Origin: Terriglobia bacterium
Lineage (GTDB): Bacteria > Acidobacteriota > Terriglobia > Acidiferrales > UBA7541
Direction: 5' to 3'
Length of the DNA stretch: 64,000 nucleotides
NCBI GenBank assembly: GCA_020073705.1
Contig: JAIQES010000005.1
Location: 1-64,000 of the forward strand
Shown: one piece after another, positions 23,792 through 32,607 of the stretch
Position numbering within the stretch: the stretch's first letter is position 1
Layout: every line of letters starts with the position of its first letter
The notes under the pieces: generated by a model
Told to the model about the DNA's origin: nothing
The model's database searches: none
The model's input: the letters and a program-made list of their open reading frames with translations, nothing else
Made by a program: the position numbers and the translations under genes

Positions 23792-25369
23792 TCAACCGCG
23801 CCCCGGACGCGGCGTGACCGGAATCATCCGGCCCTTTTCCAACGTAAACGCACTGCCGCGCCACTCAATCTGGTTCATGCTGAAGCTCGCCAGCCAGACA
23901 AAAAACGAAAGCAGGTCGCGCACTGGCAGCAGCCAGAACCGTTGCCGCAAGACAGGGTCGCGCAGCCCCCAGACGCCCACCACCCACGCCATCGCAAACC
24001 GCAGAGCGAAGTATGCGCCCAGATACGCCGCTGCCGTGGCCCCTGACGGGGCTAAACAGGCTGCCGCAATCGCCCACGGCAGCCCGTGCGTGAACAACAT
24101 GCCAAAGTGGCCGCCGGGACGGATATTACGGATTCCAATCGCCCAACGCAATTCGTGCCGCAGATACGCGCCCAGAGTCTGCGACGGAAAGGCCATCTGC
24201 ACCGGCTCGGGCAGCAGTTCGATGCGGTAGCCGCGGCCGGCAATGCGCCGGCCCAGTTCGTAGTCGTCCGAGTGCAGGTCCACCAACGCCTCGAAGCCGC
24301 CGATTTCCGCCAGGCGCTGCTTCGTCGTGGCCATCGTCGAGCCCATCATGAACTTGATGCCTTCGAGTTCTCGCGCCACCAGAGCTGCGCCGCAAAACGC
24401 CGCGGACGAGCCGACGCAGTCCATCGCGGCAACGAATTGCAGGTTATCGTCGCCCCGGTAAAGCGCCGTCACACCGCCGACCTTGGAATCACGAAATATC
24501 CCCGCGATGCTGCGCAGATATCCCGGCTCGACGCGCACATCGCTATCCGTGATCACCAGCAGGTCGTGCCGCGCCTCGCGTGCCAGCCGGCAAAGGTTTG
24601 AAACCTTGCTGTTCGGCCCGAGCTGTTCCGCCACCACGACCAGCCGGATCGGACGCCCGGGAAAATCCGCGATAAGCTTCCGCACGACGGGCACGACAGG
24701 GTCCTCGCTATCTGCAACTGCAAATAGAATTTCGAATTCGGGATATTCCTGCCGGCAGAAGCTCGCAAAATTTTCGTATGCGTGGAGATCAAGCCCGCGC
24801 ACAGGCTTCAGCACGCTGATCGGGGGAGTAGTAGTTCCGGCAGGAAGCGCCGCCTGGGGAGAAATACGATGCGCCACACCGAAAAATCGCCACGCGGAGT
24901 AGATGCCCACGATGTAATAGAACAGCGGGCCGAGCGCCAGCGCGAGAATCGCCCAGCGAACAACGGTAAATATCGAAGGCCAGTGCGGAGACGCCGGCAG
25001 ATCGTCGGCCCACGCCATGGCCACGCCGAAGCAGATCAACAGAATTCCAGCCCAGCGCGTCGCGTTCAACCGCTCGCCCAGGAAAATCTTCGCGCCGAAC
25101 GCGCCCGCCACATAAGCCAGCGACGTCGCAGGAATGACAAAACTTACCGGAAACCACGACAGCATGGCCAGAAATGAAAAGAACGACGCCGTCATCAGCA
25201 GCACGCCCAACCAGAGCCAGTTCACGCGGAGCGCGCGCAGAACGAAGGATGCAATCGCGCGCGGGCGGAAATCGTGCACCTCGCCCAGCAGCTTCATCGC
25301 GTGCGTCAGGCAGAGCTCTCCACCTACGCCCGTCAGCACCACGAAAGTAAGGACAAAGGCTGTGCGCAT
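23792..25369 (-). CDS. hpnI: HpnI-like glycosyltransferase fused to an N-terminal SMR/EamA-type membrane module
   Basis: 525 residues. Residues 1-120 form four helices with the drug/metabolite-transporter half signature (FVIPATSLAYVAGAFGAKIFLGE, then RWAGILLICFGV). Residues 135-160 are a further helix, and 180-420 are a GT21 glycosyltransferase: VLKPVRGLD, the metal-binding D275-S-D277, D368/D369, and the RW pair at 408-409. C-terminal helices follow. HpnI transfers GlcNAc to bacteriohopanetetrol; the assignment is supported by adjacency to hpnJ. Usual HpnI proteins are about 380 residues without the N-terminal module, so this is a fusion. Start ATG 25369 lies one base after the stop of the preceding gene, implying coupling. 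Confidence 0.8.
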   Translation of the reverse strand: MRTAFVLTFVVLTGVGGELCLTHAMKLLGEVHDFRPRAIASFVLRALRVNWLWLGVLLMTASFFSFLAMLSWFPVSFVIPATSLAYVAGAFGAKIFLGERLNATRWAGILLICFGVAMAWADDLPASPHWPSIFTVVRWAILALALGPLFYYIVGIYSAWRFFGVAHRISPQAALPAGTTTPPISVLKPVRGLDLHAYENFASFCRQEYPEFEILFAVADSEDPVVPVVRKLIADFPGRPIRLVVVAEQLGPNSKVSNLCRLAREARHDLLVITDSDVRVEPGYLRSIAGIFRDSKVGGVTALYRGDDNLQFVAAMDCVGSSAAFCGAALVARELEGIKFMMGSTMATTKQRLAEIGGFEALVDLHSDDYELGRRIAGRGYRIELLPEPVQMAFPSQTLGAYLRHELRWAIGIRNIRPGGHFGMLFTHGLPWAIAAACLAPSGATAAAYLGAYFALRFAMAWVVGVWGLRDPVLRQRFWLLPVRDLLSFFVWLASFSMNQIEWRGSAFTLEKGRMIPVTPRPGRG

Positions 25370-25370
25370 G

Positions 25371-25805
25371 TCAGCTCGATCTTGCCGGCTCAGTGGTGCG
25401 TTGCGGAGTGCGGTTGATTAAGAGAACTCCCAGGAAAATCAGGAGGATTCCGATCCAGCGCGCCACCGAAACATTTTCACCCAGAAATAAATATGCAAGC
25501 AGGGGCACCAGCGCATACGCGATCGCAGAAAACGGCATCACGAAGCTGTAATCGGCCCAGGACAGCACCAACATATGGCAAACCATGAACAGCAGCATGA
25601 GCGCGATGCCCAGCCAAACCGTTCCGCTCGACAAAACACGCACCGCGCCAGCCTCAATCGCCGCCAGATGCGAAATATCCAGATCGCCGACGTCCTTCAT
25701 TCCTTTGCTGAGGACTGTGTTACCGACCGACCCGAGGAAAACGAGCAGGAACAGCAGCACGTAGGTCTTGGTCTTGCGGATTTTGGCGGAGGTCATTTCG
25801 GACAC
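25371..25805 (-). CDS. Small four-helix SMR/EamA-like membrane protein
   Basis: 144 residues with four predicted helices and no other domain. The segment YSFVMPFSAIAYALVPLLAY, followed by LGE and ARWIGILLIFLGV, is plainly related to the N-terminal module of the neighbouring HpnI fusion. Size and layout resemble ArnE/ArnF and EmrE-type half transporters, which work as dimers. It sits between hpnJ and hpnI in the same operon, one base from the hpnI start. A role in flipping a hopanoid glycolipid or its precursor is inferred from context only. Confidence 0.7.
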   Translation of the reverse strand: MSEMTSAKIRKTKTYVLLFLLVFLGSVGNTVLSKGMKDVGDLDISHLAAIEAGAVRVLSSGTVWLGIALMLLFMVCHMLVLSWADYSFVMPFSAIAYALVPLLAYLFLGENVSVARWIGILLIFLGVLLINRTPQRTTEPARSS

Positions 25806-25864
25806 AGTGCTACACAGGCGAACACGAGATCAAGTGTGCCAATCCGGGGAACCTGGTTTGCTCG

Positions 25865-27349
25865 TTAGTCACCGGCACTCGAGGCGGAAATCGTCGCTGC
25901 CGTCTGGGCCATTTCGCGCGCCGTCGCCTTGCGTTCGTGCAAGAACTTGAAGAATTCGACGCCCTCGCGGAGCCGCCGCTTCATCACTTCGGGGTTACGC
26001 AGCATGCCGCCGAACAGCGAGAACATTTTCCTCGGACGGAAATAGAACTTACGGTAGAACTCTTCGACCGAATTGAAGATGACGGTCGAATTCAGGCCGG
26101 GATAATTCAGCGCCGCGGTTTGGATCCCATGGGTATCCACCATCTCGCCGGTCTGGATTTGCAACCAGCCCTGTTCCTGCGCTTGCCGATAGAGCTCCGT
26201 GCCCGGATACGGCGCCGCGAGGGAAACCTGAATCGTTTCCGGGTCGATGTCGCAAGCGAACTTGATCGTCTCTCGGATCGTTTCTGGCGTCTCGCCCGGG
26301 AGGCCGAGAATGAACGTGCCGTGGATCGTGATGCCGAGATCCTTTGCGTTACGCGAAAACTCGCGCGCAATGTCCAAGCGAATCCCCTTCTTAATGTTGT
26401 TCAGAATTTGCTGATCCCCGGACTCGTACCCGACCAGGAGAAGACGGAGACCGTTGTCCTTCAGGATTTCGAGCGTCTTGCGCGGCACGTTGGCTTTCGC
26501 GTTGCACGACCACGTCAGCCCAATCTTTCCCAGACGCCGCGCGATTTCTTCGGCGCGAGGCAGATCGTCGGTGAACGTGTCGTCGTCGAAAAAGAATTCG
26601 CGCACTTGCGGGAAATGTTTCTTCGCGAGAGCCATTTCGTTCGCGACGTTGTCCGCGCTGCGCACGCGATAGCGGTGCCCGCCCAGCGTCTGTGGCCATA
26701 GGCAGAACGTGCACTTCGAGCGGCATCCGCGCCCGGTATAAAGCGACACGTAGGGGTGCTGCAGATAGCCGATGAAGTAGTTTTCAATCGTCAGGTCGCG
26801 CTTATAGACGTCCACGACAAACGGCAAGTCATCCATGTTCTCAATCGTGGGCCGGGGCGGAGTGAACGTCACACGTCCGTTGTCCCGGTAGGCGACCCCC
26901 CCGACGTCCTTCAGCGGCTTACGCGCCGCAATCTCCGCGCAGGTATAGTCAAATTCCCCGACCGCAACCCAGTCCACCGCCGGCGCGGCATTCATGGATT
27001 GCAGCGGCAGAACACCTACGTGCGCGCCGACCATGCCCACCATGATTTTCGGGTTCACTTCCTTGAGGTGCGCGGCAAACTTCGCATCGTTGGCAAACGA
27101 TGGCGTACTGGTGTGCAGTACGGCTAGCTCATAGTCATTTGCGAGGGGGGCCACCTGTTCAACCGTCAGCCCATCCGGAGGAGCGTCAATCAGCCGGCTG
27201 CCGGGAACCATCGCCGCCGGCTGCGCCAGCCACGTCGGGTACCAGAACGACTTGATCTCACGCCGCGCCTGGTAGCGAGCGCCAGCCCCGCCGTCAAAAC
27301 CCTCATAGCTCGGCGGATTCAAAAACAATGTCTTCATCACTTCGGGCAT
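25865..27349 (-). CDS. hpnJ: Hopanoid biosynthesis radical SAM protein HpnJ
   Basis: 494 residues. The N-terminus MKTLFLNPPSYEGFDGG and SFWYPTWLAQPAAMVPGS are characteristic of HpnJ. A B12-binding-like Rossmann region (about 50-145) is followed by the radical SAM core with cysteines C209, C213 and C216 in the CX3CX2C cluster motif. HpnJ converts the N-linked glucosamine of a bacteriohopanetetrol intermediate into the cyclitol ether, downstream of HpnI and HpnK. HpnK is not in this window. The start is ATG 27349 (MPEVMKTL); ATG 27337 is nearly equivalent. It heads an operon with the small membrane protein and hpnI. Confidence 0.9.
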   Translation of the reverse strand: MPEVMKTLFLNPPSYEGFDGGAGARYQARREIKSFWYPTWLAQPAAMVPGSRLIDAPPDGLTVEQVAPLANDYELAVLHTSTPSFANDAKFAAHLKEVNPKIMVGMVGAHVGVLPLQSMNAAPAVDWVAVGEFDYTCAEIAARKPLKDVGGVAYRDNGRVTFTPPRPTIENMDDLPFVVDVYKRDLTIENYFIGYLQHPYVSLYTGRGCRSKCTFCLWPQTLGGHRYRVRSADNVANEMALAKKHFPQVREFFFDDDTFTDDLPRAEEIARRLGKIGLTWSCNAKANVPRKTLEILKDNGLRLLLVGYESGDQQILNNIKKGIRLDIAREFSRNAKDLGITIHGTFILGLPGETPETIRETIKFACDIDPETIQVSLAAPYPGTELYRQAQEQGWLQIQTGEMVDTHGIQTAALNYPGLNSTVIFNSVEEFYRKFYFRPRKMFSLFGGMLRNPEVMKRRLREGVEFFKFLHERKATAREMAQTAATISASSAGD

Positions 27350-27579: not shown

Positions 27580-28917
27580 CTATTGCAGCACCGTAGCCAC
27601 TTGCCCGGTGGTCCGAAGCAGTTCGAGCTCTGCCTGCTGCCGGGCATAGTTCGCATCCAGATAGGACAGCCACTTATCATTCTCGTTCAGGTGCGCAGCC
27701 TCCAGATCTTTCAGGCTGCCGCGTCCCTGGTCGAACTGCATCTGCAGATTGTGCAAATTCTCTTGCGCGAGCTGTAGTTCCAGCCGGGCCACATCTCCCC
27801 CAAGATCGGCCTCCCGCACCAGCCTTGCCTTTCGGCGGACGTCTAGTGAGAGTTCGCTGCGCTTCTTCTGGAGCGCCAGATTCGCCGCGTTCAAGTCCGC
27901 CTGCGCAAACGCCACCTCGGCCGATGTGCGCGACGCAAAAATCGGGATGCGTATTTCCAGGCCGAATATGACATTATTCCGTTGAAATTTGTTGAAAAAA
28001 TCGGTGTAGTTGTTCATTCGGCTCAACACGTTGTACTGGCCGGTCAAGCCGATCGTGGGCCAATATCCGCCGCGTTCACCCTTTAGTTTTTCCTCGCGTG
28101 CGCGCCGTTCCGTTTCTGCCTGCTTCAGTTCGATATTGTTCGCCATCGCCTGCGAGACCAAGTCTTTCGCTTCATCCGCGGCGGCACCCGGGATGTCCTC
28201 CGTCGAGACTTCGATCGGCAGGTCCTGCGGCAGGCCCATCATGTCGCGTAGTTCGCCGGAGAGCGAATCTTCGCGGTCTTCCATTTGCGCTACGCGCTGC
28301 TCGATTCGCGCGGTCGTGAGCTGGGCCCGTGTCACCTCAATGGGCAGCTCACGTCCCGCCGCGGCACGGTCCCGCATCGCGTCAAGGATCCGTCCCGCGC
28401 TCAATCGCTCGCTGCGCATCAACTCCAGCGCGTGCCGCACCTTCGCAAGTTCCAGATACAGGAGCGCCGCCCGCACCATCACGCCGTCGCGTACGCCGTC
28501 CATCGAAAGCCGTTGCCCCTCCGCCCTCTGCTCGGCCGCGCGCTGCTCACCCTTGAGGGGAGGATTGAAGATCTGCTGGTCGTACGACAAGCTAAAGATA
28601 GCGGGCACGCCGCCGCCAGACATTAGCGGAAATCCGCTGGTGTATGCGGCGCCCGTTCCGCTGTAGAAGTTCGGACGGAACGCCGAGCGGGTCACGCCGG
28701 CCTCGCGCTGCAATACACCGTATTGCAAACGGGCCAACGCGAGGTCGCGACTGTTCCCCACGGCCAGGCTGACGGCTTCCTTGAGTGTCAGCTTACGTGA
28801 AATTTCTGAGTCCTGCGCGCGACCGGCTGAAACGCCACTCAGTACGAGCAGTATCAGCCATGCCCGGCGTCCCGCACTTCGTCGCCGAATTTCCACCGTG
28901 ACTGCTCTTTCTTCCAT
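27580..28917 (-). CDS. TolC-family outer membrane efflux protein
   Basis: About 445 residues from ATG 28917. A signal sequence (WLILLVLSGVSAGRAQ) is followed by two long alpha-helical hairpin repeats typical of OEP/TolC: LTLKEAVSLAVGNSRDLALARLQ at the N-terminus and an equivalent DLVSQAMANNIELKQAETE in the second half, each ending in coiled-coil. It should form the outer-membrane channel for the upstream permease and adaptor. It is the last gene of a minus-strand operon, with 105 bp to the permease. Confidence 0.88.
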   Translation of the reverse strand: MEERAVTVEIRRRSAGRRAWLILLVLSGVSAGRAQDSEISRKLTLKEAVSLAVGNSRDLALARLQYGVLQREAGVTRSAFRPNFYSGTGAAYTSGFPLMSGGGVPAIFSLSYDQQIFNPPLKGEQRAAEQRAEGQRLSMDGVRDGVMVRAALLYLELAKVRHALELMRSERLSAGRILDAMRDRAAAGRELPIEVTRAQLTTARIEQRVAQMEDREDSLSGELRDMMGLPQDLPIEVSTEDIPGAAADEAKDLVSQAMANNIELKQAETERRAREEKLKGERGGYWPTIGLTGQYNVLSRMNNYTDFFNKFQRNNVIFGLEIRIPIFASRTSAEVAFAQADLNAANLALQKKRSELSLDVRRKARLVREADLGGDVARLELQLAQENLHNLQMQFDQGRGSLKDLEAAHLNENDKWLSYLDANYARQQAELELLRTTGQVATVLQ

Positions 28918-29022
28918 GCCCGCATTCTCACTTTCCGGCTGGCGGCGCGTTGTGCCTTTTCGCTCCTCTGCATTGCCCTCGGTCTTCAACTGGCCTTCTA
29001 CGTCGAATAAGAGCAAGCGCGG

Positions 29023-30225
29023 CTATTCGTATCGCAGCGATTCGGCGGGCTGCAGTTTTGCAGCTCGGTCCGCCGGCAAATACCCGAAGAAAACGCCGAC
29101 GGAGCAGGACACCAGAAACGCCAGCACTACCGACTGCCAGGGCACCGGCACGCGCAGATTCCCCGGAAGTAACGGCTCTGCCATGACGGGAATTGCAACG
29201 GCAATCAAGATCCCCAGCACTGATCCGAACCCACTGATCAAAAAAGCCTCTAGCAAGAACTGGAAGAGAATCTCGCTGCGCCGCGCCCCGATCGCCTTCC
29301 GAATCCCGATCTCACGGGTGCGCTCCCTAACAGTCACCAGCATGATATTCATAATCCCAATCCCGCTGACCACCAGCGCAATGAATCCGATCAACACCAG
29401 AACCACGGTCAGCGCCAGCGCAATTTGTCGCGCCGCTTCCACTATCGAGTTGAGGTTCATCACCTGATACCGCGCGCGGGTGGGATGCCGGTTACGCAAC
29501 AGCGCCTCAAGCTGGCGAGTCACCGGGATTACTTCCCCGGGCGACCTTGCCTGCGCGTACAGCATCTCCAGCGAAGTATCTCCCGTGTAATACTTCATGA
29601 GTGGAAATGGGATCAAGACCGAGTAATCCTGAATCTCCGAGAGACCGTAGGTTTGCACGCGCTCTCGGAATACACCAATGACGGTGAAACTGAGTTCGCC
29701 GACTCGCAGGTTTTGTCCGATCGGGTCGGCAAGGGGGAAAACCAGGCTCGCGAGCTGCGTCGTAATCAAACAGACCCTGCTGCCCGAACTCATGTCCTCG
29801 GCATCCACAAACCTGCCGCGTAAAATCAACAAGTTGCGAATCTGCTGGAACCTTTCGGTGACGCCCACCAGGTTTACGGTGCGCTCGACCGATCCCGCCA
29901 GCACGCTACTCTGTATCCCGCGCGTCCCCGCCACCGTTACGATACCCGGAAGCGCCGCCTTCGCGGCATTCATGTCTTCCAGCGACAATTCATCTTGCAG
30001 CATGATCGGCCGATTCGGATCAATATCGAGACGCGCATAGACCAGGTTCGCGCCAACCCCTTCAATTTGTGCGATGACATAGCGCCGTCCGCTCGACGCC
30101 ACGGTTACGACAAGAACAATACATGCGCTGCCGATGACCACGCCGAGCGTGGTCAGAAACGCGCGGATCTTGTTGGCCCAAAGGGCTTCGAGCGCGACCG
30201 CCCATGTTTCATTCCGGGGCATCAT
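29023..30225 (-). CDS. MacB-type ABC transporter permease without ATPase domain
   Basis: 400 residues. An N-terminal membrane segment (NKIRAFLTTLGVVIGSACIVLVV), a large periplasmic MacB-PCD domain (about 50-255), then three C-terminal helices with GIMNIMLVTVRERTREIGIRKAIGARR, the FtsX/MacB permease signature. Full MacB proteins carry an N-terminal ATPase (about 650 residues total); here it is absent and no separate ATPase lies in the operon. The partner could be encoded elsewhere. With the adaptor and TolC protein this should form a periplasm-to-outside exporter. Confidence 0.88.
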   Translation of the reverse strand: MMPRNETWAVALEALWANKIRAFLTTLGVVIGSACIVLVVTVASSGRRYVIAQIEGVGANLVYARLDIDPNRPIMLQDELSLEDMNAAKAALPGIVTVAGTRGIQSSVLAGSVERTVNLVGVTERFQQIRNLLILRGRFVDAEDMSSGSRVCLITTQLASLVFPLADPIGQNLRVGELSFTVIGVFRERVQTYGLSEIQDYSVLIPFPLMKYYTGDTSLEMLYAQARSPGEVIPVTRQLEALLRNRHPTRARYQVMNLNSIVEAARQIALALTVVLVLIGFIALVVSGIGIMNIMLVTVRERTREIGIRKAIGARRSEILFQFLLEAFLISGFGSVLGILIAVAIPVMAEPLLPGNLRVPVPWQSVVLAFLVSCSVGVFFGYLPADRAAKLQPAESLRYE

Positions 30226-30382
30226 GATTGCTGCCGTCGACTATAACAAACCTCAGATGAAAAAACCCGGCTGGAGGTTGGCATTCTATTTGTAGTTCGA
30301 AACCAGTTGGTCATGCAAATTCGCCGAACATCCATGTGCAATACTTGGAAACATTCCGTGACCGCTGGTGATTCGCGGCCCT

Positions 30383-31375
30383 TTATTTTTTCTCCACCCG
30401 CTTCAAAGCGTCTTCCACTGCTCTATTGTGCGGATCGAGAGCCAGGGAGGCGCGATATTCTTCTGCCGCTTCCGAAAATCTCTTCTGGGCCTCACAGAGC
30501 TTTCCGAGCCATTCCAGCGCGGAAGAATGCGCAGGAAGATCGGAATTGTCGGGGACCGTAGCCAGATAGGCCTTCAGCAATGATTTCGCCTCGGTGGGAT
30601 TCTCCCCTTTCATGACGAGAAGAATGCCGCGGTAGAACTTCAAGCGGCGGTCGTCAGCATCGATTCGTTCGGCGGCGGCAATCGCCTCACTCATTCTTGC
30701 GGTGTTCTGGCGGTCGCGGTAATAATCCGCCACCTCGAAGCAGACGCCGATTCGATCCGTATTCGAGTCCAGGATCTTTGCGAAGACCGTATCCGCTTCC
30801 GCCAGACGTTTCTTCGCGTTGAGGAACTCTCCGCGGGCAAGTTGCCCTTGCAAGGCGTCGAGCTTCTCGAGGGCTTCGATGTGCTTCAAGGCCCGGTCGT
30901 CGCCGCCGCTGAGGATACCGGGCGCGTACATCTCAAAGCGGATCAAATCGCGCTGCGCCTCGAAATTAGAGGGGTCGAGATGGACCGCAACCTCAAATTC
31001 CTTGTGCGTTTTTCTCGCCCATCCCATCGCGCTCAGGAACATGGCCTGCTCGGCCCTGCGGCCGTAGGCCTTGCCAAGCCAGTCGTGATATTCGGACTGC
31101 CCTGGGACCAATTGAACACTACGCTCGAAACTCGCCACTGCACGGGTAAATTCGCGAAGTTGGTAATAACACTGACCGAGAAGGAAATGAAGCGACGCGT
31201 CGTTAGGAGATTTTACAACCGCGTCCGACAGGGTGTCCACGGCACGGTGGTAATGCCCGGCGTTATATTCGCGCTGCGCCTCGGCCACCGGACTCTGCTC
31301 GGCGCGGGCCGGAACTACATCCGGCACATGAATCGCAAACAACAGCAAAGCTGCCAATATCAAACGGGGGTTCAT
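30383..31375 (-). CDS. Exported TPR-repeat protein in the efflux operon
   Basis: 330 residues with a signal peptide (LILAALLLFAIHVPDVVPARA) and several tetratricopeptide repeats: EAQREYNAGHYHRAVDTLSDAV, ASLHFLLGQCYYQLREFTRAVASFERSVQLVPG, and a final ALEWLGKLCEAQKRFSEAAEEYRASLALDP. TPRs mediate protein-protein contact, so a periplasmic assembly or substrate-presenting role is plausible but unproven. Its ATG overlaps the adaptor's stop by four bases (ATGA), so it is translated with it. The permease follows after 157 bp. Confidence 0.8.
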   Translation of the reverse strand: MNPRLILAALLLFAIHVPDVVPARAEQSPVAEAQREYNAGHYHRAVDTLSDAVVKSPNDASLHFLLGQCYYQLREFTRAVASFERSVQLVPGQSEYHDWLGKAYGRRAEQAMFLSAMGWARKTHKEFEVAVHLDPSNFEAQRDLIRFEMYAPGILSGGDDRALKHIEALEKLDALQGQLARGEFLNAKKRLAEADTVFAKILDSNTDRIGVCFEVADYYRDRQNTARMSEAIAAAERIDADDRRLKFYRGILLVMKGENPTEAKSLLKAYLATVPDNSDLPAHSSALEWLGKLCEAQKRFSEAAEEYRASLALDPHNRAVEDALKRVEKK

Positions 31376-32607
31376 TCCGGGCGCATCGCTCGTATCCGTA
31401 GATTTTCTTTAAGCGACACCTCGCCCGGCAGCGCGACTACATCGCCCTGTTGCAGGCCCGAGAGAACTTCGATCATCGTCGGATTGGCGATGCCGACCTT
31501 AATATCGCGCCGGTGCAAACGATCGTCTTCTACCCTATACACGAACCGCTTGCTGCCATCGACGTACACTGCACCGCGAGGCACCACAAGTACGTTTGGC
31601 CGCTCACTGACGTGAATGTGCACGTCCACGGTCGTGTTCGGAAGCAGATCGAGCCGGTCATTGGACACCGAGCAAAGCAATTCGCCGACATTGCGCGTGC
31701 CATGGGTGACGACCTGTTTCGGGACAACCCCGGTACGGCCACTCCACGTGCGTTCGGGATGCGCGTCCCAGAGAATCTCCACTGCCCGGTTGGCGTCGAT
31801 CTGCCCGAGTTCGGGTTCGTCAATAAATGCGCGAACACGAACGTGATGGAGATCGGCCATCTCGGCCAATAGATCTCCTTCCTTTACGAAATCACCCGAG
31901 CGTATGGGAAGTGAGTACATCGTGCCATCGAACGGGGCCGTGCCATGCGCAGAGCTGACCTTTTCTTCGTAGTCTCGAACCTGAGCTTGCGCACGTTCAA
32001 CCAACAGCGCAACCCGCTCGATGTCCGTCTGTGCCTGACGGTCGGAGGCCTGCTTCATCTTATCGAGTGACTGGACGTCGGTTTCGGCCTGGGCCAGCGC
32101 CACCTGGTTCTGCTCCAATTCCTGCGGTGTAGCAGCCTTCTGGGCCACCAGCTTGGTCAGTGATTCATTGTCGCGGCGCAACTGGACCAGTCTAGTCTGA
32201 GCCTTCTTCAGGTCGGCGGCGATCTTGGCGACCTGATCGACCGGGCCGCCCGATCTTGCCACGCGCAGCGCTTCTTGTTCCGCAGCCAAGTCCGCGCGCG
32301 CCTGCGCCAGTCCAGCGCGGGCCACCTTGTCGTCAAGTGCGAAGAGCAATTGGCCTCGCTTCACCTGCTGGCCTTCCACCGCGTAAACTTTCTCGACGGC
32401 CGTGGCGAACCCTGCGCGAAATGAACGCGGTGTGATAGGTTCCACTTTCCCGTTGGTTGAGACCATAGAACTCAAGTCTTGCCGTACGACATCCGCGACA
32501 TCCACGCGCGCTGTTGATTCCCGGCCGCTTATGAAAACCAGGACAGCCGTAAGCACAAGGGCAGCGCCCACGATAAACCACAGTCTTCTTCCGAGTCCCG
32601 TCGCCAT
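31372..32607 (-). CDS. HlyD/MacA-family periplasmic adaptor protein
   Basis: 411 residues. One N-terminal anchor helix (LWFIVGAALVLTAVLVFI), a lipoyl-like barrel half (VEKVYAVEGQQVKRGQLLFALD), a long coiled-coil (about 85-205, rich in Ala, Gln and Glu), the second barrel half (GTAPFDGTMYSLPIRSGDFVKEGDLLAEM) and beta-barrel/membrane-proximal domains. This is the membrane-fusion adaptor of tripartite exporters. It is the first gene of the operon with the TPR protein, permease and TolC. Start ATG 32607. Confidence 0.9.
   Translation of the reverse strand: MATGLGRRLWFIVGAALVLTAVLVFISGRESTARVDVADVVRQDLSSMVSTNGKVEPITPRSFRAGFATAVEKVYAVEGQQVKRGQLLFALDDKVARAGLAQARADLAAEQEALRVARSGGPVDQVAKIAADLKKAQTRLVQLRRDNESLTKLVAQKAATPQELEQNQVALAQAETDVQSLDKMKQASDRQAQTDIERVALLVERAQAQVRDYEEKVSSAHGTAPFDGTMYSLPIRSGDFVKEGDLLAEMADLHHVRVRAFIDEPELGQIDANRAVEILWDAHPERTWSGRTGVVPKQVVTHGTRNVGELLCSVSNDRLDLLPNTTVDVHIHVSERPNVLVVPRGAVYVDGSKRFVYRVEDDRLHRRDIKVGIANPTMIEVLSGLQQGDVVALPGEVSLKENLRIRAMRPE

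Follow-up and report, generated by a model that had tools for sequence, protein, structure and literature searches.

In the stretch of DNA analyzed here, the first 64,000 nucleotides of the Terriglobia bacterium contig JAIQES010000005.1 (assembly GCA_020073705.1; the whole stretch is called the window below), the hopanoid glycosyltransferase HpnI carries an additional membrane module at its N terminus, and a related protein is encoded by a separate small gene located between hpnI and hpnJ. We call the separate half EamS (gene eamS) and the HpnI-linked half EamN, both names being coined in this analysis. Our results suggest that the two halves probably constitute a paired small multidrug resistance (SMR) flippase for hopanoid glycolipids, with one subunit tethered to HpnI; the dimer, the flipping, the cargo, and an onward role of the adjacent TolC/MacB genes are what we infer from the fused module, the tandem pair, their conservation, opposite charge bias, SMR fold, and operon association, and a complementary distribution with HpnL-like genes, all of which can be read from the sequences. 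The setting is soil Acidobacteriota, and the hopanoids are bacterial sterol-like lipids; the literature that we found gives no route across the inner membrane for hopanoids that carry a bulky sugar head. The SMR pair, the HpnI fusion, and the HpnL complementarity make both this crossing and the role of HpnL directly testable, and the fused protein would be an SMR heterodimer with its orientation pinned by an enzyme, of use in studies of antiparallel assembly and enzyme-to-flippase channeling.

The locus and its two related halves

All genes of the locus are on the minus strand, in the order hpnJ, eamS, hpnI. The first (25865-27349) encodes a B12-binding radical SAM protein that belongs to the composite hopanoid pathway and passes the TIGR03471 equivalog cut-off (777.7 bits vs. 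577.6); eamS (25371-25805) encodes the separate 144-aa half, a member of the SMR/drug-metabolite transporter (DMT) proteins that exceeds the Pfam EamA cut-off (33.7 bits vs. 28.2); and a single base separates its stop codon from the start codon of hpnI (23792-25369, 525 aa). Residues 1-122 of HpnI (25004-25369) form EamN, the other SMR/DMT half, and the remainder (23792-25003) continues in frame with a linker and an N-terminal membrane helix (residues ~123-168), a GT21/GT2-type glycosyltransferase domain, and C-terminal membrane segments. HpnI passes the TIGR03472 equivalog with 331 bits against a cut-off of 310 over residues 143-514, and its closest solved relative by sequence is ceramide glucosyltransferase (PDB, E 6e-27). 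The initial annotation spoke of a hopanoid cluster, which is accurate as far as hpnI and hpnJ go, both passing their equivalog cut-offs; these are the only hopanoid genes of the window locus, however, as shc and HpnH, both over cut-off, lie on another contig of the source genome (G000:C70), and neither HpnK nor HpnN has a match in the source assembly at E<=1e-20.

EamN (here, HpnI residues 1-120) and EamS align without gaps over 103 residues at 37% identity, with an E-value of 7e-18 for the pair, and the motif said in the initial annotation to be common to both halves is found in both sequences, as SFVIPATSLAY...FLGERLNATRWAGILLI and SFVMPFSAIAY...FLGENVSVARWIGILLI. They are the sole two matches of their kind in the source genome. 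In a tree of 119 sequences, EamN and EamS form separate clades, and the hopanoid-linked EamN sequences share one side of a branch with a support of 95/84; the two are ancient paralogues.

The Pfam EamA and NCBIfam ArnE/ArnF models match both halves, the latter with scores under cut-off: EamS reaches 33.5 (ArnF) and 20.1 bits (ArnE) and EamN 24.5 bits (ArnE), the equivalogs (NF011625 / NF002816) requiring 92 / 99 bits. The description of the halves as ArnE/F-like may, then, hold for the mechanism but not for membership, the scores being 20-34 bits vs. 92/99. Across the orthologues, the ArnE model is nevertheless the most widely matched SMR model (41 of 42 EamN and 45 of 63 EamS sequences), and EbrA/EbrB are weakly matched by some members. 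The AlphaFold2 model of EamS (mean pLDDT 82.8) has four long helices and a short one, and Foldseek ranks EmrE and Gdx-Clo first among its PDB matches (probability 0.93-1.00, E 0.04-0.18, TM-score ~0.4-0.6), the modest E-values being expected for four-helix proteins. In the model of the fused HpnI (mean pLDDT 92.9), the EamN helices 2-28, 36-47, 50-72, 75-97, and 103-122 have the pattern seen in EamS and are followed by a lower-confidence linker, a membrane helix, and the glycosyltransferase domain; with the whole fusion as the query, the best 50 Foldseek matches are glycosyltransferases only, and the SMR module has no match of its own among them. Sequence searches of the PDB with EamN and EamS profiles recover SLC35B1, NIPA2, and CMP-sialic acid transporters, with EmrE matched weakly. 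Both halves are thereby predicted to have the four-helix fold of the SMR superfamily, and the proposed kinship between a four-helix N-terminal module of HpnI and the adjoining 144-aa protein agrees with the alignment and the models alike.

The position in the first transmembrane helix (TM1) that we take to correspond to EmrE Glu14, judged by its spacing to Met-Lys at the helix end, is E or D in all 42 EamN orthologues (residue 18; E18 in the window, 25316-25318, minus strand). Among the 63 EamS sequences, the same position holds D in 32, N in 27, Q in three, and E in one, the residue of the window being N29 (25719-25721, minus strand). As lipid SMRs have often lost the TM1 Glu (PMC9574504), and EamN keeps the acid where the window EamS has Asn, the pair may be asymmetric, with one coupled or catalytic half and the other not.

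Charge bias and predicted orientation

The subunits encoded by tandem SMR genes have opposite Lys/Arg biases, centering around +4 and -4, and the bias of singletons is close to zero (PMC9574504). We computed the bias with the formula of that study for the 53 loci having both halves. The mean for EamN is -5.7, with negative values in 53/53 loci (-5 in the window); for EamS, the mean is +2.6, with 47 positive values, six zeros, and no negative ones (+5 in the window), though this bias partly hinges on the N-terminal start chosen, and the loop counts alone are less one-sided. The signs are thus opposite in 47 of the 53 loci and the same in none. Single SMR genes range from -2 to +3, compatible with dual-topology homodimers. 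The opposite bias of EamS and EamN is the signature expected of antiparallel SMR heterodimers, and because of it, we predict EamN to be N-out/C-out and EamS to be N-in/C-in. The architecture of the fused protein provides a second view of the same question: the catalytic domain of HpnI is expected to be cytosolic and is preceded by a membrane helix, and therefore EamN must end in the periplasm. This fusion geometry is an independent check, and it agrees with the orientation predicted for EamN from the charges.

Association with hopanoid genes

Our sample consisted of 247 Acidobacteriota genomes, mostly draft or metagenome-assembled (MAG) assemblies, and the genome counts should not be read as numbers of independent events. 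HpnJ exceeds the cut-off in 35 of the 247, and 33 of these 35 have the eamS-eamN tandem pair. Its distance to hpnJ is at most 1.6 kb in 31 genomes and 7.9 kb in a further one, and in the remaining genome, the pair and hpnJ lie on different contigs. The arrangement varies by family: in the window's family and several others, eamN immediately precedes hpnI; in the Acidobacteriaceae-like family f2, the genes run hpnJ-eamS-eamN, and hpnI is mostly elsewhere; families f29, f40, and f71 lack hpnJ and have one SMR gene in place of the pair; and three genomes (G037, G066, G196) have the gene order hpnI-hpnK-eamA. The idea that hpnI is an obligatory neighbor of the pair was rejected, as the pair of Acidobacteriaceae remains beside hpnJ and hpnI is found elsewhere.

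The occurrence of hpnI and hpnJ without hpnK has been reported for Acidobacteria subdivisions 1 and 3 (PMC5462960). In contrast to that report, HpnK over the cut-off is found in family f33 (G051, G063, G096, G123, G165), between hpnJ and the SMR pair; the loci with this arrangement in the first three genomes are L069, L068, and L065, respectively.

Complementarity with HpnL

Among the 35 HpnJ genomes, an HpnL-like gene occurs in two, G029 and G192, and these are precisely the ones that lack an SMR pair. The G029 gene follows hpnK and scores 77 bits with LPG_synthase_TM and 111.7 bits with TIGR03476 (cut-off 195.65); the G192 gene is a fragment at the end of the shc/hpnH contig and scores 72.3 bits with TIGR03476. 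Conversely, the 33 pair-bearing genomes, G000 included, have no HpnL match at E<=1e-10, and EamS and EamN match neither TIGR03476 (at its cut-off of 195.65 bits) nor LPG_synthase_TM. The pattern extends outside the phylum, the hpnI/hpnJ clusters of Burkholderiaceae having a full-score HpnL and no EamA gene. HpnL resembles the SMR pair in being a membrane protein that occupies the same slot by hpnI/hpnJ/hpnK but differs in having an unrelated fold and about 320 aa, and the two are mutually exclusive in the sampled HpnJ genomes. The LPG_synthase_TM family of HpnL includes the flippase domain of MprF. We consider these observations a pointer, rather than a proof, that two unrelated membrane families, the SMR pair and HpnL, may fill the same slot in the pathway. 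According to a 2025 survey of Alphaproteobacteria, hpnL has no established function, and hpnN serves to bring hopanoids to the outer membrane (PMC12583986).

Recurrence and conservation of the fusion

Within the window's family, the in-frame EamN-HpnI fusion is present in eleven genomes from four genera, and further genera have eamN and hpnI as adjacent, unfused genes. The ten fused relatives share 85 to 55% identity with the window protein, that of Candidatus Acidiferrum typicum 84%. In the EamN tree, the eleven fused sequences form one group (85/91), and the HpnI tree would require one more origin. Outside the phylum, a Syntrophobacteraceae MAG from a bog (L140) has a fused EamN-HpnI of 547 aa (L140:8435-10075), with an EamA-type hpnJ and eamS upstream of it, and this protein falls apart from the others in both trees. 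The sequences argue for at least two fusion events, in Acidobacteriota and in L140, and for a probable spread of the operon between phyla. The limitation of the fusion to a single genome was considered and rejected: the phylum sample gave G000 only, and the search of the family gave more.

Within the genus, the dN/dS ratio is 0.055-0.105 for EamN, 0.09-0.115 for EamS, and 0.084-0.091 for the glycosyltransferase, and 0.19-0.47 for the linker. As the first three are all low and alike, EamN, EamS, and the glycosyltransferase appear to be under similar purifying constraint, with the linker freer to change. A decay of the N-terminal module was rejected on the EamN ratios. The concern that the module might be missing or degenerate in close relatives has not materialized, the module being fused in eleven genomes with a low dN/dS.

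Proposed mechanism and known systems

We propose that EamS and EamN would act in the inner membrane as one antiparallel heterodimer of the SMR fold. The catalytic domain of HpnI, facing the cytoplasm, would add a sugar to bacteriohopanetetrol in the cytoplasmic leaflet; the sugar would be reworked in the cytosol by HpnJ and, in genomes that have it, by HpnK; and the EamS/EamN dimer would then flip the sugar head group into the periplasmic leaflet, as undecaprenyl-phosphate-aminoarabinose is flipped by ArnE/ArnF. The fusion would hold one flippase subunit where the cargo is produced. Both the sequence of these steps and the identity of the cargo are what we infer. The heterodimeric half-DMT flippase tethered to a glycosyltransferase that was predicted at the outset is supported by the genome-wide association with hpnJ and hpnI, the opposite charges, and a topology compatible with the fusion; the conserved fusion under purifying selection, a separate fusion in a second phylum, and the complementarity with HpnL fit the same prediction.

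Among known systems, ArnE/ArnF and other paired SMRs are the closest. Like EamS/EamN, ArnE/ArnF are two four-helix SMR proteins of ~110-140 aa encoded in tandem beside a lipid-glycosylation pathway, and they are the best-matching named SMR model for most EamN/EamS members. Unlike them, EamS/EamN belong to a hopanoid operon and not to an arn operon (lipid A aminoarabinose), their neighbors being hpnI, hpnJ, tolC, a macB permease, TPR, and hlyD; further, one subunit is fused to a glycosyltransferase, and EamN retains the acidic TM1 residue. EbrAB and MdtIJ share the tandem paralogues, the opposite Lys/Arg bias, and the predicted antiparallel heterodimer, but EamS/EamN lie in a hopanoid operon without a cation-pump context, and the matches to EbrA/EbrB and MdtI/MdtJ are weak. 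MprF combines a lipid-modifying enzyme and a flippase in one polypeptide; it differs from EamN-HpnI in its enzyme and flippase fold and in containing a whole flippase instead of a heterodimer half. HpnN, an RND transporter, is like the proposed pair involved in hopanoid transport, but it carries hopanoids to the outer membrane, and at E<=1e-20, it has no match in any tested EamA-pair genome.

In the GEBA survey, the lipid SMRs were all singletons, yet functional pairs are known elsewhere (PMC9574504). What is new is the assignment of a paired SMR lipid flippase, with an enzyme-tethered subunit, to hopanoids; paired SMRs themselves are known. The literature that we found, with subscription journals outside its coverage, names no EamA/SMR protein as a member of the hopanoid pathway and no hopanoid flippase of such a kind, in line with what the initial annotation had assumed. 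We see the chances as evenly balanced that this is the first inner-membrane hopanoid-glycolipid flippase to be identified, a heterodimeric SMR tethered to a glycosyltransferase, with a flippase role also for HpnL by complementarity.

Alternative explanations

Several observations weigh against the pair being a hopanoid-glycolipid flippase. Most Acidobacteriaceae have hpnI at a different place from the SMR pair, and the charge bias of EamS is weaker than that of EamN. The HpnL complementarity comes down to two lineages in the phylum, with matches under the TIGR03476 cut-off. No hpnK was detected in G000 (E<=1e-20), and the end product is uncertain in the window's genus for this reason. Finally, four genomes that lack shc and HpnH (G169, G201, G215, G074; L077-L080) also have SMR pairs of the same two clades, and because of them, the cargo cannot be read from the fold alone; in G201 and G074, the two of the four whose neighbors were scanned, no lipid-glycosylation gene was seen beside the pair. 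The small protein was expected to keep to the vicinity of hopanoid genes, and this expectation holds in 31 of the 33 genomes but not for these four related pairs.

A fairly unlikely alternative, and the one that survives best, is that the SMR pair is a membrane scaffold or regulatory subunit that places HpnI (and HpnJ) and presents bacteriohopanetetrol, the product not being transported. The covalent fusion to the enzyme and the small size would suit such a role, as would the loss of the acidic TM1 residue in roughly half of the EamS sequences (N 27, Q 3 of 63), but EamN keeps this residue in 42/42, and in most Acidobacteriaceae, the pair is unfused and often distant from hpnI and thus not needed as its physical subunit; a distribution complementary to the flippase-like HpnL family also speaks against this alternative. 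It is unlikely that the pair flips another lipid that the locus makes or uses, such as a sugar linked to undecaprenyl or to a phospholipid, the hopanoid genes being mere neighbors: the association with hpnJ in 33 of 35 genomes, the two fusions to hpnI, and the hpnI-hpnK-eamA operons of other families are difficult to reconcile with this, even if sister pairs exist in genomes lacking hopanoid genes and a lipid flippase of the SMR kind can accept more than one glycolipid (PMC9574504). That the pair is an ordinary SMR drug exporter of the EbrAB/Qac type, in the operon by chance, is very improbable. While EmrE and Gdx are the nearest solved folds and EbrA/EbrB weakly match some members, of the SMR models, ArnE is matched by the most members, the window EamS has Asn for the central acidic residue as is often the case in lipid SMRs (PMC9574504), and a drug pump would have no reason to fuse twice with a lipid glycosyltransferase. 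That the fusion is an artefact of MAG assembly or annotation, as the 78-contig draft state of the source genome might suggest, is practically inconceivable and already refuted by independent assemblies, the same in-frame fusion being found in eleven genomes of four genera and also in separately named records.

Neighboring genes and the history of hpnJ

Next to hpnJ, the window contains four further genes on the minus strand: a TolC-type outer-membrane channel (27580-29016; TIGR01844 match), whose homologues adjoin hpnJ in other genomes and whose role here is putative; a MacB-like permease (29023-30225) with the Pfam MacB_PCD and FtsX domains and without the ATPase domain; a TPR protein (30383-31375; NCBIfam TPR matches); and an HlyD/RND-type periplasmic adaptor (31372-32607; TIGR01730, 149 bits vs. 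cut-off 94.9), the last two being conserved neighbors. Other families share with the window the position of this set (27580-32607) beside hpnJ-eamS, the TolC-type gene is kept beside hpnJ-eamS-eamN across the class, and tandem MacB permeases adjoin hpnI in the genomes of the class where hpnI is separate. Because the hopanoid shuttle HpnN was not found, we suggest that the HlyD-TPR-MacB-TolC genes would carry the lipid onward and consider them a candidate outer-membrane export route for hopanoids where HpnN is undetected.

The HpnJ proteins of the window genus and a sister genus (L102-L104, L108-L110, L131-L134) group with a support of 100/100 with the HpnJ of HpnL-type clusters (G029, Burkholderiaceae) and stand apart from their counterparts in other EamA-type operons, among them the HpnJ of the fused relative L106. 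Judging from this grouping, hpnJ has apparently been replaced in place within the window-type operon.

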